Shown piece by piece: positions 30,188-36,902 of a DNA stretch of 64,000 bases. The translations under genes and the position numbers were made by a program. The notes beneath the pieces were generated by a model that ran no database searches, was not told where the DNA came from, and saw only the letters and a program-made list of their open reading frames with translations. This DNA is from Verrucomicrobiota bacterium (GTDB taxonomy: Bacteria; Verrucomicrobiota; Verrucomicrobiia; Limisphaerales; VHCN01): the NCBI GenBank assembly GCA_016871675.1, contig VHCN01000006.1, positions 1 to 64,000 on the forward strand, given 5' to 3'. The first letter of the stretch is position 1. Every line of letters begins with the position of its first letter.

Positions 30188-30907
30188 TCACCCGGTCATC
30201 TGCACGAGCCGCACGAACGGGATGAGGCGCGGCTGGAGGTCCTTCACGCCGAGCGCGGACAAGTCTTCGAGCGGGATGGCGTCGGCGATGTCGAACTGGC
30301 CGCTGACGAGGCGGCGAAGGTTGCGCAGGTGGGCGCCGCAGCCGAGTGTGCGGCCGAGGTCGAAGGCGAGGGTGCGGACGTAGGTGCCCTTGGTGCAGGC
30401 GACGCGAAACCATGCGATGGGCTCGGCGTAGGCGGTGAACTCGTAGGTGTAGATGTGGACAAGGCGTTCCTTGCGCTCCACGTCCATGCCTTTGCGCGCG
30501 AGTTTGTAGAGGGGCACGCCCTTGATTTTCACGGCGGACACCATGGGGGGGAGTTGCATCACGTCGCCGTGAAACGTGGCGGCGGCGGCGTTGAGTTGGT
30601 CGAGGGTGAGCGGCGGGACGGCAAGGGTGGCGGTGACTTCGCCGTCGGCGTCGTAGCTGGCGGTCTCGACGCCGAATCGCATGGTGCCCTCGTAGACTTT
30701 GTCGTCGGCCATGAGTTTCTCGGCGAGCTTGGTGGCGCGGCCGAGGAGGAGCACGAGCAGGCCGGTGGCGTTCGGGTCGAGCGTGCCGCAGTGGCCGACT
30801 TTTTTGACGTGGAACAGCCCGCGCACACAGTCCACGACATCGTGCGAGGTGAGGCCGGCGGGCTTGTCGATGAGAAGGGCGCCGTCGAGCAGGTCGAACG
30901 TGTGCAT
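30188..30907 (-). CDS. truB: tRNA pseudouridine(55) synthase
   Basis: A 239-residue enzyme that makes pseudouridine 55 in the T-loop of tRNAs. The family start is GALLIDKPAGLTSHDVV. The catalytic motif is GHCGTLDPNATGLLVLLLG, with catalytic Asp at residue 44. Later motifs are YEGTMRFGVET and CTKGTYVRTLAFDLG. It lacks a long C-terminal PUA domain, as in shorter bacterial TruB. It is the last gene of the nusA-infB-rbfA-nrnA-truB cluster, 28 bases after nrnA. Confidence 0.95.
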   Translation of the reverse strand: MHTFDLLDGALLIDKPAGLTSHDVVDCVRGLFHVKKVGHCGTLDPNATGLLVLLLGRATKLAEKLMADDKVYEGTMRFGVETASYDADGEVTATLAVPPLTLDQLNAAAATFHGDVMQLPPMVSAVKIKGVPLYKLARKGMDVERKERLVHIYTYEFTAYAEPIAWFRVACTKGTYVRTLAFDLGRTLGCGAHLRNLRRLVSGQFDIADAIPLEDLSALGVKDLQPRLIPFVRLVQMTG

Positions 30908-30935: not shown

Positions 30936-31919
30936 TCAGTGCGCGGCGGCGATGGACTTCTTGATGGCGGCGAGCACGCGCCGCTGAATGTCGGCGGGGT
31001 TGCCGCGGATGCGCGCGCCGGCTGCGGCCGGATGCCCGCCCCCGCCGAAGGGTGCGGCGATTTCGTTGACGTTCACCGCGGCGCTCTTGGAGCGGAGGCT
31101 GACACGCGTGAGGCCCGGCCCGGCTTCCTCGAAGACGCACGCGACGATGACGGGCTCGATGTCGCGGATGTGGTCGATGAGGCCCTCGCTGTCGGCGGGG
31201 TCGGCGCCGGTGCGGGCGTAATCAGATTTGCGCAGGCGGACCCACGCGATGCGGTCGGAGTCGGCGAGGCGGAAGTGGTTGAAGACGTGGCGGAGGAGCT
31301 TCATGCGCGAGACGGGGAAGGACTGGTAGACCTCGTGGCAGATGCGGGCGAGGCTGGCGCCGCGCTTCACGAGCTCGGCGGCGACGTGGTAGGTGGACGG
31401 GCGCGTGCTCGGGTATTGGAACGAGCCGGTGTCGGTGGAGACGGCGGTGAAGAGGCAGTCCGCGATCGGCGGCGTGATGGGCCAGTTGGCGGCCTTGAGG
31501 AGGCGGAAGATGAGCTCGCCGGTGGAGGCTTCGCGGCCGGAGACCCAGTTGATGTCGGCGTAGCGGGTGTTGCTCTCGTGATGGTCGATGTTGATGAAGA
31601 CGCGCCGGTCCGCGATGTGGGCCGCGAGCGTGCCGAGGCGCTCGACGCTCGCGCAATCCGTCGCAATCACGGCGTCGAACGCGCAGCCGGCGCGCGGTTG
31701 CTGCATCAGGCCGTCGGGGACGAGGAACGCAAGCTTGTGCGGCACGCGGTCCTGGTTCCAGCAGGCGACCTTGCGGCCGGTGTCGCGCAGCGCGAGCGCG
31801 AGGCCGACCTGCGAGCCGATGCAGTCGCCGTCGGGCCGCATGTGGCCGACGACGCAGACACGTTTGCAGCCGCGGAGGGCGTCGAGGATGCGGGAGACGG
31901 TTTTGGGAACGGGCCTCAC
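30936..31919 (-). CDS. nrnA: DHH-family nanoRNase / pAp phosphatase
   Basis: A 327-residue DHH/DHHA1 phosphoesterase that degrades nanoRNA and/or 3'-phosphoadenosine 5'-phosphate. The metal-binding motifs are GHMRPDGDCIGSQVG (residues 25-39) and NIDHHESNTRYAD (the DHH motif). The C-terminal DHHA1 domain ends with the substrate motif FGGGGHPAAAGARI. Placement between rbfA and truB is the classical nusA-operon arrangement in many bacteria. Confidence 0.93.
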   Translation of the reverse strand: MRPVPKTVSRILDALRGCKRVCVVGHMRPDGDCIGSQVGLALALRDTGRKVACWNQDRVPHKLAFLVPDGLMQQPRAGCAFDAVIATDCASVERLGTLAAHIADRRVFINIDHHESNTRYADINWVSGREASTGELIFRLLKAANWPITPPIADCLFTAVSTDTGSFQYPSTRPSTYHVAAELVKRGASLARICHEVYQSFPVSRMKLLRHVFNHFRLADSDRIAWVRLRKSDYARTGADPADSEGLIDHIRDIEPVIVACVFEEAGPGLTRVSLRSKSAAVNVNEIAAPFGGGGHPAAAGARIRGNPADIQRRVLAAIKKSIAAAH

Positions 31920-31948: not shown

Positions 31949-32317
31949 TTATCGCTTCGGCTCTTCCTTGGGCAGCGTCTTCTCCACTTCCTCAAGGATG
32001 GTGAGCACGCGGTTGCCGCGTTCCACGGAGTCGTCGTAGAGAAACCGCAGGACGGGCGTGTAGCGGAGGACGATGTCGGCGGCCATGAGGGACTGGATGC
32101 GGGCGCGGTGCTTGTCGAGCAAGGGGATGGCGGCGTGGCGCTGCTGGGGGCTGCCGATGACGCCGATGTAAACGGTCGCGGTCTGGAGGTCGGGCGCGAC
32201 TTCGACGTCGTTGACGGTGATGAGGCCGGCGGTCTCGATGGCGAATTCGCGGCGGACGATTTCGCCGAGGCTGCGCTTGAGCATCTCGTTGACGCGGTCG
32301 AGACGGCGGTGCGGCAT
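31949..32317 (-). CDS. rbfA: Ribosome-binding factor A
   Basis: A 122-residue KH-type factor for late maturation of the 30S subunit (16S rRNA 5' end). The conserved N-terminus RLDRVNEMLKRSLGEIVRRE and the core ITVNDVEVAPDLQTATVYIG are clear, followed by a short charged tail. ATG 32317 was chosen because it directly precedes the conserved RLDRVNE helix; an earlier in-frame start adds an unconserved basic segment. It lies 109 bases after infB in the same direction. Confidence 0.93.
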   Translation of the reverse strand: MPHRRLDRVNEMLKRSLGEIVRREFAIETAGLITVNDVEVAPDLQTATVYIGVIGSPQQRHAAIPLLDKHRARIQSLMAADIVLRYTPVLRFLYDDSVERGNRVLTILEEVEKTLPKEEPKR

Positions 32318-32426
32318 GGCGTGGAGGGTGCGAGTGGTCAGGGGGCGCTGTGGCCGCGCGGGCGGCGCGCTGGATTTGTGTTGAGGACCTTCATCGGCGT
32401 TCCGTGCCACGTGTCCGCGCGACGGC

Positions 32427-34871
32427 TCAGAGTGTCTGCTTCACCTTTTCGACGGAGTAACTCTCGATGAGGTCGCCGGGTTGGAAATCGTTGAAGGATT
32501 CCAGGCGGATGCCGCATTCCATGCCGGCGCGGACCTCGGAGACTTCGTCCTGGAAGCGGCGCAGCGTCGTCACGGCGCCCTCGTAAATGAGACCCTTGCG
32601 GCGCATGACGCGGACCTTGCCGCGAGTGATGCGCCCGGTGGAGACGACGCACCCGGCGACGTTGCCGCCCTTGGAGAGCGCGAAGAGTTTCCGGACCTCG
32701 GCGGAGCCGAGGACGACTTCCTTGAGGACGGGGTCGAGCAGGCCGGCCATGGCGTCCTTCACCTCGTCGATCAATTCGTAGATGATCGTGTAGAGCTTGA
32801 TCTGCACGCCCTGATGCTTGGCAATGTCGGCCACGCCAGTGTCGATGCGCGTGTGGAAGCCGAGGATGATGCCCTTGGACGCGGCGGCGAGGAGGACGTC
32901 GCTCTCGGTGATGGTCCCGACGGCGCCGTGGACAGTTTCGAGTGCGACGCGGTCGGAGCCAATCTTGCCAAGCTCGGACTCGATGGCCTCGACGGAGCCT
33001 TGCGTGTCCGCCTTGACGACGACCTTGAGCACCTTGTTCTGCGCCTCCGCGAGCGTGCTGAAGAGGTTTTCCAGCGTGACCTTCGGCTTGCGTTCCTCGA
33101 GTTCGATCGCCTTGGCCTCCATCGCCCGCGTGCCGGCAAGTTCGCGCGCGGCCTTTTCATTCTCCATCACGGAAAACTCGATGCCGGCCTCGGGGATGCC
33201 GTTCAGACCGAGGATTTTCACGGCCACGGACGGCGTGGCTTCCTTGAGGCGTTTGCCTTCCTCGTTGATGAGCGCCTTGACCTTGCCGAAAAAGTGGCCG
33301 CAGATGACCACGTCGCCGACCTTCAGCGTGCCCTTGCGGACGAGCACGGTGGCGACGGGGCCGCCCGGTTCGAGGCCGGACTCGATCACGTTGCCGCGCG
33401 CGCGGCGGGCGGGGTTGGCCTTGAGTTCGATGACCTCGGCCTGCAGCAGGAGCATTTCGAGCAACTTGTCCACGCCCTGCTTGGTGAGGCCGGAGCAGTC
33501 CACGAAGATGGTCTCGCCTCCCCATTCCTCGCAGGTCAGGCCCTTGTCCTGAAGCTGCTGCCGCACTTTCATCGGGTTCGCGTTCGGGTGGTCGCACTTG
33601 TTGACGGCGACGAGGATGGGGACCTTGGCCGCGCGGGCGTGGCTGAGCGCCTCGAGGGTTTGCGGCATCACGCCATCGTTGGCGGCGACGACGAGGATGA
33701 CGATGTCCGTGACGTTCGCGCCGCGCGCGCGCATGGCACTGAAGGCGGCGTGGCCGGGCGTGTCGAGGAATGTGATCTGCTGGACTTCCGTTTTGCGCTC
33801 GGGGTGCGGGAATGAAATCGTGTAGGCGCCGATGTGTTGCGTGATGCCGCCGGCTTCGCCTTCGGCGACGTTGGCCTTGCGGATGCCGTCGAGGAGCGTC
33901 GTCTTGCCGTGGTCCACGTGGCCCATGATGGTGACCACGGGCGGGCGCGGCCTGAGATCTTCGGGCTTGTCCTCGACGTCAACCTCGACCTTGCGGACGG
34001 GCGCGTGGACCTGCCCCTCGCCGCGGGCGCGCTTCTCGACTTCGAACCGGAAGCCTCGCTTCGCGCAGATTTTCTGCGCGACGAGTTCGTCCACTGAATC
34101 GTTGATCTTCGCGAACACTTTCAGCTCCATCAGGTCGCCGATGAGCTGGAACGGCTTGAGCTTCATCCTGTCCGCAAGCTCGCGGACCATGATGGGCGGC
34201 TTGACGATGATGAGTTCGCCCTCGGCAAGCGGGACGAACTTGGGCTCGGCCGGCCGTGCGGGTGCCGGTGGGCGTGGAGCAGATTTGGGCGCGAACGTCG
34301 GCTTTGGGGCGGCGGGTTTCGCGGCGGGAACCGCGGGTTCGGAGATGCGAGTGGCCGTCCGCGCGGAGGGCGACTTGAGCCACGTGGGCGCGATGGAGCC
34401 GACTTTCTGGCCGAGCACCGGGCCGGCGGGAACGGGCGGCGGCGCGGGCGGGGTGACCGGGGTGGCCCTGGCCTCGACGACGGGCGTGGGTTGCCCGCCG
34501 GGCGCGACTGTCGCGGGCGAAATCACGGCGATTCCCGGCGCGGGCATGGTCGGGAGCATCTCCGGAGCCGGCAGCGAGACGGCCCCGGCCGTTTCGGGCG
34601 CGGCGTGGACAAACGTGACGCCCTGCTCGGCAACCACGAGCGGAGGTTCGGGCGGAGCAACGATGAGAACGGGCTGCGATTCGGGAACGGGCGCGGGAGC
34701 GGGAGCGACTTTGACGCCGCCGAGTTGTTCCTCGAGATACTCTGCCGTGATTTTATCCAGCGAACTGGACGGAACCTTGGCTTCCTTGATGCCAAGATCC
34801 TTGGCCTTCGTGAGCACGTCCTTGCTCTCGATGCCTAGCTTGCGGGCGATGTCGTAAATGCGAACGGGCAT
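32427..34871 (-). CDS. infB: Translation initiation factor IF-2
   Basis: An 814-residue IF-2. The N-terminal IF2_N domain is [21 protein letters not shown] long Pro/Ala-rich linker covers about 55-215. A second IF2_N-like domain (about 225-275) precedes the GTPase domain. G motifs are [14 protein letters not shown] (G1), DTPGHAAF (G3) and NKCDHP (G4). Domains II, III and the fMet-tRNA-binding C2 domain follow. The length and order are normal. It follows nusA by 78 bases in the same operon. Confidence 0.97.
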
Positions 34872-34949: not shown

Positions 34950-36227
34950 TCAAGCCGCCAGCCCGGCGCTGCCCCCGGCGGCCCTCCGCGCGACTTCGGC
35001 GCGGACAGCGTCCAGGATGGCTGCAGCCTGACCTGACAGTTGAGGAATCTCGTCGAGGTCTTTCGCCTCGACCTGCAAGAGATCCTCGATCGAATGAAAT
35101 CCTGTCTGCACGAGCACTTCGGCCTGCTCGCGCGTGACGCCGGGGATGCCGGCGAAGAGCTCGATGGCAATGCCGACCTTCTCGTCGAAGCCGACGGTGA
35201 CGACCTGCTCCGGTTCGATGTTCACCTGCCAGCCGGTCAACCGCGAGGCAAGCCGGGCGTTCTGGCCGCGCTTGCCGATGGCGAGCGAGAGCTGGTCCTC
35301 GCTCACGAGGATGCGGCAGCGGCGGTTGGCTTCGTCGATGTCAAAGGCCTTCAGCTTGGCGGGGGCAAGCGCGTTCGTCAGGTAATTCCGGATGTTCGTG
35401 TCGAACTTGATGATGTCCATCTTCTCGTTGTTGAGCTCGCGGACGATGTTCTTGACGCGTTGGCCGCGCAGGCCGACGCACGCGCCGACGGGGTCCACCT
35501 TGTCGTCGCGGGAGTGGACCGCGAGCTTGGTGCGGAAGCCCGGTTCGCGGGCGACGCCCTTGATTTCGACCGTGCCGTTGGCGATCTCCGACACTTCGAG
35601 CATGAACAGCTTCACAACGAACTGCGGGTCGGAGCGCGACAGGATGATCTCCGGGCCGTGGCCCGAGTTGTCCACGGCCTTGACGAAGCAGCGGATGCGC
35701 TCGCCCGGCTGGTATTCCTCGGTGGGCACGCGCTCGCGGTTGGGCAGGAGCGCCTCGAACTTGCCGAGGTCCACGATGACGTCCGAACGGTCGAACCGGC
35801 GGACGACCCCGCTGACGATGTCGCCCGTGCGGTCCTTGAACTCGGTGTAAATGAGCTCCTTCTCGAACTTCCGGACCTGCTGGAGGAGGGCCTGCTTGGC
35901 GTTTTGGGCGGCGATGCGGCCAAAGCCGGTGGGGGTGACTTCGACCTCGATTTCCTCGCCGAGCTGGGCGTCGGCCTTGATGCGCCGGGCGTCGAAAAGG
36001 GAGATTTGATCGTGCTTGGAAACGACGCGTTCGGAGACGACCAGCTTGGCAAAGGCCCGGATGTCGCCGGACTTGGGGCTGATTTCGCACCGGAGGTCGC
36101 GGGCGGGACCCACGGCCTTCTTGGCGGCGGAAACCAGCGCTTCATGGACGGCCTGCACCAGGACATCCTTGCTGATGCCCTTTTCTTTTTCCCAGTAATC
36201 CAAAATGGCCAAAAACTCGGCGTTCAT
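34950..36227 (-). CDS. nusA: Transcription termination/antitermination factor NusA
   Basis: A 425-residue NusA. The N-terminal RNA-polymerase-binding domain covers about 1-130. The S1 domain (about 135-200) contains GDIVSGVVRRFDRSDVIVDLG. KH1 has DPVGACVGLRGQRVKNIVREL, and KH2 has SLAIGKRGQNARLASRLTG. A helix-hairpin-helix tail lies at 350-410. Usually rimP precedes nusA; here no rimP is found, and the gene on the other side is divergent. A promoter and a terminator-like hairpin lie in its leader. Confidence 0.97.
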   Translation of the reverse strand: MNAEFLAILDYWEKEKGISKDVLVQAVHEALVSAAKKAVGPARDLRCEISPKSGDIRAFAKLVVSERVVSKHDQISLFDARRIKADAQLGEEIEVEVTPTGFGRIAAQNAKQALLQQVRKFEKELIYTEFKDRTGDIVSGVVRRFDRSDVIVDLGKFEALLPNRERVPTEEYQPGERIRCFVKAVDNSGHGPEIILSRSDPQFVVKLFMLEVSEIANGTVEIKGVAREPGFRTKLAVHSRDDKVDPVGACVGLRGQRVKNIVRELNNEKMDIIKFDTNIRNYLTNALAPAKLKAFDIDEANRRCRILVSEDQLSLAIGKRGQNARLASRLTGWQVNIEPEQVVTVGFDEKVGIAIELFAGIPGVTREQAEVLVQTGFHSIEDLLQVEAKDLDEIPQLSGQAAAILDAVRAEVARRAAGGSAGLAA

Positions 36228-36265
36228 AAGTCAATCGCCCCGTGCCTCGGCTGGATGCGGCGAAC

Positions 36266-36292
36266 AAAAAAGTCGGAACGGAATTCCGACTT
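36266..36292 (-). terminator. Intrinsic-terminator hairpin in the nusA leader
   Basis: On the minus strand a perfect 9-bp stem AAGTCGGAA / TTCCGACTT closes a 5-nt loop and is followed by a run of Ts (TTTTTTG including the stem end). It lies 39 bases upstream of the nusA ATG and downstream of the likely nusA promoter, with no upstream gene it could terminate: the neighbour at 36468 points the other way. It therefore looks like an attenuator in the leader. Confidence 0.7.
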
Positions 36293-36338
36293 CACACTCG
36301 CTGGCTGACCAGCAGCCCATCGTTGTCCTACGCTGCGG

Positions 36339-36367
36339 AAACTAGGGAGCGAGCCCGGGGGCGTCAA
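36339..36367 (-). promoter_or_regulatory. Promoter-like element for the nusA operon
   Basis: TTGACG (complement of 36362-36367), a 17-base spacer and TAGTTT (complement of 36339-36344). The predicted start near 36332 gives a leader of about 105 nt containing the terminator-like hairpin. Confidence 0.55.
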
Positions 36368-36401: not shown

Positions 36402-36429
36402 TTGACGGTCCTCCCGCCGGGCGTATCCT
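36402..36429 (+). promoter_or_regulatory. Promoter-like element for the lysozyme-like gene
   Basis: TTGACG (36402-36407), a 16-base spacer and TATCCT (36424-36429). Transcription would begin about 30 bases before the ATG at 36468. It is back to back with the nusA promoter, 35 bases apart. Confidence 0.5.
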
Positions 36430-36467: not shown

Positions 36468-36902
36468 ATGCGCCGATGGCTCCTCAGCTTGGGATTGTGG
36501 GTGGGTTTGACCGCCTCGGAGGCCACGGCGATGCCTTTGCGGCAGTCACTGGCGATGTTCGAGTCGGGCGCGAGCGGCGCGGCGCGCGGCGCGGCCGACT
36601 TGAAGCGCGGCGGAAGCGGGGAAGTCAGCCGATTCCAGATCATGCCCGACGTCTGGCACCAATACAGCCGGTCTCGCGATTACGACGACCCGGACACCGC
36701 CTGGCAGGTCGCCTCCCGCATCCTCAACGACCGCTGCAAACGTTTCCGCTCCGCCACCGGGCGCGAGCCCAACGCCCAGGAAATCTACCTCCTTTGGAAC
36801 AAACCGGGCAGCTTCGAGGCGTCCGGGTTCGTGCTTTCCAAGGTCAAGCCGCTCTACCGCGAGCGCGCGGGGCGATTCGCCAACCTCCACCACAGCCGCT
36901 GA
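36468..36902 (+). CDS. Exported lysozyme-like (SLT superfamily) small protein
   Basis: A 144-residue protein with a signal peptide (MRRWLLSLGLWVGLTASEATA, cleavage about residue 21). The rest has a lysozyme-superfamily look: a Glu in MFESGAS that could be catalytic, then SRFQIMPDVWHQYS and a paired-helix end AQEIYLLWNKPG. This resembles small transglycosylase-type domains acting on peptidoglycan, but the identification is by motif pattern only. A strong Shine-Dalgarno sequence GGGGGAAGG precedes ATG 36468. It converges on cinA with 14 bases between stops. Confidence 0.55.
   Translation: MRRWLLSLGLWVGLTASEATAMPLRQSLAMFESGASGAARGAADLKRGGSGEVSRFQIMPDVWHQYSRSRDYDDPDTAWQVASRILNDRCKRFRSATGREPNAQEIYLLWNKPGSFEASGFVLSKVKPLYRERAGRFANLHHSR

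Follow-up and report, generated by a model that had tools for sequence, protein, structure and literature searches.

A conserved terminator hairpin in the nusA operon leader of Limisphaerales: a putative lineage-specific transcription attenuator

We found that the nusA operon of a Verrucomicrobiota bacterium from the order Limisphaerales is preceded by a leader with a real and conserved terminator, which is very probably regulatory. Judged from sequence, this leader is a lineage-recoded version of the known nusA-operon attenuator, to which a further hairpin has been added. We consider it probable that the leader acts as a promoter-proximal transcription attenuator of the operon, through which NusA would feed back on its own synthesis by termination in the leader. 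Such NusA brakes are known in other bacteria, and the Limisphaerales lineage has its own version.

Leader layout and conservation in Limisphaerales

The features of the leader and operon are given below for the window, by which we mean the whole stretch of DNA that was analysed (64,000 nucleotides, positions 1 to 64,000 of contig VHCN01000006.1).

36362..36367 (-): -35 element TTGACG of the nusA promoter; TTGAC precedes P2 by 60-92 nt in 121 of 122 leaders
36339..36344 (-): -10 element TAGTTT, lineage form TANNNT, with a 17-nt spacer to the -35 element
36300..36313 (-): P1, a small hairpin GCTGG-TCAG-CCAGC just 5' of the terminator, with pairing and covariation across leaders
36270..36292 (-): P2, the terminator stem-loop AAGTCGGAATTCCGTTCCGACTT; core present in 122 of 123 leaders
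36263..36271 (-): U-tract UUUUUU-G-UU with a distal interruption; 112 of 122 leaders have TTTT(G/A)TT 3' of the stem
34950..36227 (-): nusA, start 36227 (Pfam NusA_N, S1, KH_5)
32427..34871 (-): infB (Pfam IF-2, GTP_EFTU)
31949..32410 (-): rbfA (Pfam RBFA); the first start codon was taken and the true start may be further in
30936..31919 (-): DHH/DHHA1 phosphoesterase, nrnA-like (Pfam DHH, DHHA1)
30188..30907 (-): truB (Pfam TruB_N, TruB_C_2)

The initial annotation had described a promoter, then a hairpin with a T-run, then nusA; all of these were located at the positions it gave, and its coordinates were exact, beginning at the -35 element and closing with the T-run (uninterrupted at 36271-36266, (-)). 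The gene order which it proposed, nusA-infB-rbfA-nrnA-truB, agrees with the Pfam matches, the fourth gene being of the DHH/DHHA1 type and nrnA-like. The transcript is predicted to start at about 36331-36334 (-), and P2 in the window has 10 pairs and an energy of -11.6 kcal/mol (RNA fold). Across leaders the general plan is a TTGACG-17-TANNNT promoter followed by P1, P2 (AAGTCGG...CCGACTTTTTT(G/A)TT) and nusA.

No recognisable gene lies between the promoter and nusA, again in line with the initial annotation. An ATG frame of 29 aa (36231-36320) spans P1 and P2 in the window's genome and could in principle encode a translated leader peptide which controls the terminator, but neither its start codon nor its frame is kept in relatives and no counterpart was seen there (by eye). 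A leader peptide was rejected as a candidate, and we regard control of this type as having a practically negligible chance of being correct.

In the window's genome alone, the leader signal is not above chance: a terminator scan gave 12 sites per 12 kb against 10.6 expected, the nusA promoter of the window was absent from the output of a sigma-70 scan and the leader folded no better than its shuffles (z = -0.73). The P2 pattern occurs a single time in this 3.6 Mb genome, in which the covariance model described below had one further match (E = 1.37). The leader signal rises above chance because it is conserved within the order.

We surveyed the order with a covariance model of 99 positions, which was built from 61 leaders (alignment A1). 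The rows of A1 are not all independent, as it includes 11 loci several of which are near relatives of one another; the duplicates L039 and L044 and the loci from outside the phylum (L045-L051) were left out of it. The model matched 129 of the 146 genomes sampled from the order, with 137 matches in total. In 127 of the 133 genomes which bear nusA the element was found directly before this gene, with the match located -2 to 51 nt before nusA (median 8). The conservation in relatives which the initial annotation had named as a check is therefore strong, and its observation of a hairpin leader is confirmed and strengthened; P1 and the published precedent had formed no part of it. Of the six nusA-bearing genomes without a model match, five still show GTCGG stems in front of the gene, and in the sixth (L089) the stem is broken.

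Ten of the 137 matches were found away from nusA; one of these sits at the edge of a contig, in a genome without a NusA match. The two strongest non-nusA matches come from one genus, lie before smpB (named by eye) and resemble ordinary terminators. A multi-gene regulon was considered and rejected: the 9 matches which are neither at nusA nor at an edge are weak, and those inspected resemble ordinary terminators or chance.

Counts of stems, promoters and P1 were made on 123 leaders, comprising the window, 49 loci and a further 73 loci; some genomes which match the model (e.g. G019, G028, G080 and G115) are not among them. A regular expression for P2 matched 122 of the 123, the exception (L012) having a variant stem. 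It should be noted that five loci (L032, L035, L038, L041 and L042), whose nusA locus is 73-77% identical to that of the window and has the same leader, come from records titled Akkermansia muciniphila, Proteobacteria and Klebsiella pneumoniae; these titles look wrong.

The core of P2, GTCGG/CCG(A/G)C, was present in 122/123 leaders and is nearly invariant in its letters, not merely in its pairing. In the 61-leader alignment 99.5% of P2 cells were paired, with 3 of 7 pairs invariant, and 94.7% of P1 cells were paired, 4 of its 5 pairs having changed on both sides; in reading these pairing statistics it should be kept in mind that related sequences can beat the tool's shuffles. The energies of the P2 hairpin are modest (-7.7 to -13.6 kcal/mol, median -11.2). 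The tract which follows has the form U6-(G/A)-UU, interrupted after six U, in 112 of 122 leaders, and four loci of one family (L070, L088, L091 and L092) keep the GTCGG stem with the U-tract altered to TTCTGTTTTTT or TTCTATTTTTTT. There was little conservation outside the stems. A third hairpin, P3 (CCCC..GGGG, 3' of the U-tract), was rejected as part of the element, with 71.7% of its cells paired and no copy in the window.

P1 was found 2-9 nt before P2 in 109/122 leaders, compared with 507/2440 simple letter shuffles. A looser count gave 116/122 leaders against 1130/2440 shuffles of the same kind and 229/488 upstream stretches. In other orders P1 was found in 7 of the 32 leaders with a locatable stem (9 further stems could not be located), and P1 therefore seems to be specific to Limisphaerales. 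From the spacings within leaders, about 9-11 nt separate the base of P1 from the C of GTC 3' of it, a distance which is reminiscent of hairpin pauses.

As to the promoter, TANNNT was found 16-18 nt from TTGAC in 115 of 121 leaders, compared with 2/121 and 10/121 at off positions. P2 ends 26-76 nt from the nusA start codon (median 36, 122 leaders), which leaves little space for a promoter 3' of P2. With a conserved promoter 5' of P2 and so short a distance to the gene, transcripts of nusA therefore very probably pass P2. These findings bear on whether P2 could instead act constitutively as an insulator, or end transcription arriving from the cinA side, with nusA itself unregulated. Intergenic terminators are common and cinA does lie upstream on the same strand, but the conserved promoter stands between the upstream gene and P2, nusA transcripts very probably cross P2, given its closeness to the start codon, and a general terminator would not preserve the letters of its stem in nearly every leader. 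We consider either of these roles very improbable.

On the opposite strand a divergent frame of 144 aa (36468-36902, (+)) has no Pfam match and a start which resembles a secretion signal; it has its own promoter-like sequence, TTGACG-16-TATCCT (36402-36429), adjoining the nusA promoter.

Relation to other orders and to known nusA-operon leaders

We compared the leader with those of 42 nusA loci belonging to other orders and classes, of which 17 are from genomes chosen for a model match anywhere and 25 from an even draw from the class. None of these contained GTCGG; the stem was GTGGG in 28 and GCGGG in 7 (35/42), with a matching 3' arm and the same position before nusA. Both of these forms are near to the GGGc..gCCC motif of the rimP-leader discussed below. 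Any such stem was found in only 13 of 192 random stretches of the same 42 loci, and a looser count gave a terminator-like hairpin before nusA in 41/42. Across 288 genomes of the phylum, the order's model matched 18, including the window's own genome and G333, where the match is just upstream of nusA. The exact GTCGG form was thus rejected as a phylum-wide feature, the remaining genomes having mostly GTGGG or GCGGG. In loci L045-L051 (Omnitrophota, Elusimicrobia and others) no such hairpin was seen by eye. The simplest history would start from an old GGG..CCC attenuator; in this order one of its stem pairs would have turned from G-C into C-G, and P1 would have been added.

The published rimP-leader and the Rfam family RF01770 (rimP) share operon and position with the Limisphaerales leader. 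Naville and Gautheret (2010, PMC2965389) describe the rimP-leader as an unusual terminator with a conserved GGGc..gCCC stem, which precedes rimP-nusA-infB in many bacteria, and in E. coli K-12 (L215) we found GGGC..GCCC with a T-run before rimP. According to the account of this element in PMC2965389, its general form has no antiterminator, and its authors propose a role for NusA from the conserved stem and the absent antiterminator. As in that account, the Limisphaerales leader has a terminator hairpin and U-stretch before nusA-infB with an unusually conserved stem, and the order has no consensus antiterminator, yet 50 of 122 single-sequence folds do pair the 5' arm of P2 upstream. Unlike the rimP-leader as described there, the order's GTCGG..CCGAC core breaks the GGGc..gCCC motif, the first gene is nusA and not rimP, and there is the extra hairpin P1 5' of the terminator. 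The RF01770 model placed 0 of 59 phylum genomes over its gathering threshold and had no match at E <= 10 in the window's genome. Rfam as a whole (release 15), riboswitches included, gave no match in the window.

With regard to antitermination in our own set, no consensus upstream pairing of the P2 5' arm was found in the 122 leaders of the order, and an antiterminator was rejected for the order as a whole; the 50 single folds which do pair make antitermination possible in some species. In other orders, six leaders (L188, L190, L195 and L197 of family f66; L191 and L192 of f64) have a CACTTTC or CACTC just 5' of P2 which could pair with its 5' arm, and these are possible antiterminators. The nusA-operon leader of B. 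subtilis is not known to contain an antiterminator. Autoregulation of NusA by leader attenuation in Bacillus subtilis was reportedly described by Mondal in 2016.

According to a review (PMC12288461), B. subtilis NusA controls its own expression through NusA-stimulated termination in its 5' leader, and PMC2965389 gives rimP as the first gene of the operon in that species. The Limisphaerales leader resembles that attenuator, as the review outlines it, in that a nusA operon has an intrinsic terminator within its leader; NusA dependence is a feature of the B. subtilis system. The two differ in stem sequence, in P1 and in the first gene (rimP there, nusA here). Distal interruptions of the U-tract are among the features reported for NusA-dependent terminators of B. 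subtilis (PMC8060035). An attenuator of the B. subtilis type would be expected to have a suboptimal hairpin or a distal interruption of the U-tract; the values observed here, taken from the leaders themselves, are a median P2 energy of -11.2 kcal/mol and a TTTT(G/A)TT tract in 112/122 leaders. Our literature searches found no account of a nusA leader from Verrucomicrobia. The present leader would bring the nusA-operon attenuator into a phylum whose transcription has been little studied, as a defined RNA element which Rfam release 15 does not match.

Mechanism and the candidate sensor

The anatomy of the leader, its conservation, its place before nusA and the absence of a conserved antiterminator are established by comparison of the leaders, and we infer that termination at P2 would be partial and that NusA is its probable sensor. 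RNA polymerase would start about 40 nt before P2, transcribe P1 and reach P2 and the interrupted run of U which follows it. There some polymerases would stop, and the remainder would continue into nusA-infB-rbfA-nrnA-truB. When NusA is plentiful, stronger hairpin folding and pausing would cause more transcripts to end; when it is scarce there would be more read-through, and NusA would thereby set its own level. We favour NusA feedback because the letters of the stem are invariant, its stability is modest, the U-tract is interrupted, the link to nusA is nearly exclusive and there is no conserved antiterminator. Weighing against it are the altered U-tracts of L070, L088, L091 and L092, the broken stem of L089, the upstream pairing of the P2 5' arm in 50 of 122 single folds and the chance-level signal in the window's genome taken by itself. 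The support for NusA in particular consists of precedent, as set out in the accounts of PMC12288461 and PMC2965389, together with the invariance of the stem sequence.

RimP was also considered as a sensor. RimP_N (PF02576) gave no match in any of 20 genomes from the order, compared with matches in 10 of 14 control genomes, and rimP seems to be lost or unrecognisable in the order, which is evidence against RimP in this role. As the attenuator has been kept at nusA where no rimP is detectable, NusA is favoured over RimP as the sensor.

The near-invariance of the stem exceeds what the known NusA mechanism needs, so another factor which reads sequence is possible. The same attenuator might thus respond to a regulator other than NusA (NusG, a ribosomal protein or a small molecule) which reads the stem or P1. 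The stem letters are held tighter than pairing alone demands, the operon encodes translation factors too and P1 is a lineage-specific addition, all of which would suit such a regulator. However, the element is as a rule tied to nusA and to no other gene, the precedent in PMC12288461 and PMC2965389 points to NusA, and no Rfam family, riboswitches included, was matched. We therefore see a different regulator as a serious but unlikely candidate.

It was also considered that the product of termination, about 75 nt long (P1 and P2), is itself a small RNA which acts on other targets, with read-through into nusA being secondary. It would have two conserved hairpins, a U-tail and a strong promoter of its own, but there is little conservation beyond the stems and the element is linked to nusA, making this a very improbable reading.

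Eight diagnostic positions separate the NusA of the order (50 sequences) from 42 others, and these include 183, in the S1 region, and 253 and 256, beside the GXXG loop of KH1; in the order, 253 changes mostly from M to L, 256 changes to Q and position 183 is K. This leads to a tentative and rather doubtful proposal, in which NusA or the NusA-polymerase complex would read the identity of the stem bases as a key fits a lock, the order would have recoded stem and NusA jointly, and P1 would be a pause for NusA loading. On the side of the stem, a switch of pair 3 of GTGGG..CCCAC from G-C to C-G would give GTCGG..CCGAC. On the side of the protein, 253, 256 and K183 make up 3 of the 8 diagnostic positions, and their changes may be plain lineage drift. 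On the side of P1, the idea that a hairpin pause could let NusA load before the terminator is drawn solely from the spacing. The GTGGG and GTCGG stems of sister lineages, each with its own NusA protein, provide a natural swap through which it could be seen if stem sequence or stability alone is sensed. One NusA frame in our set (G107:C97:5244-6512) contains one internal TGA.
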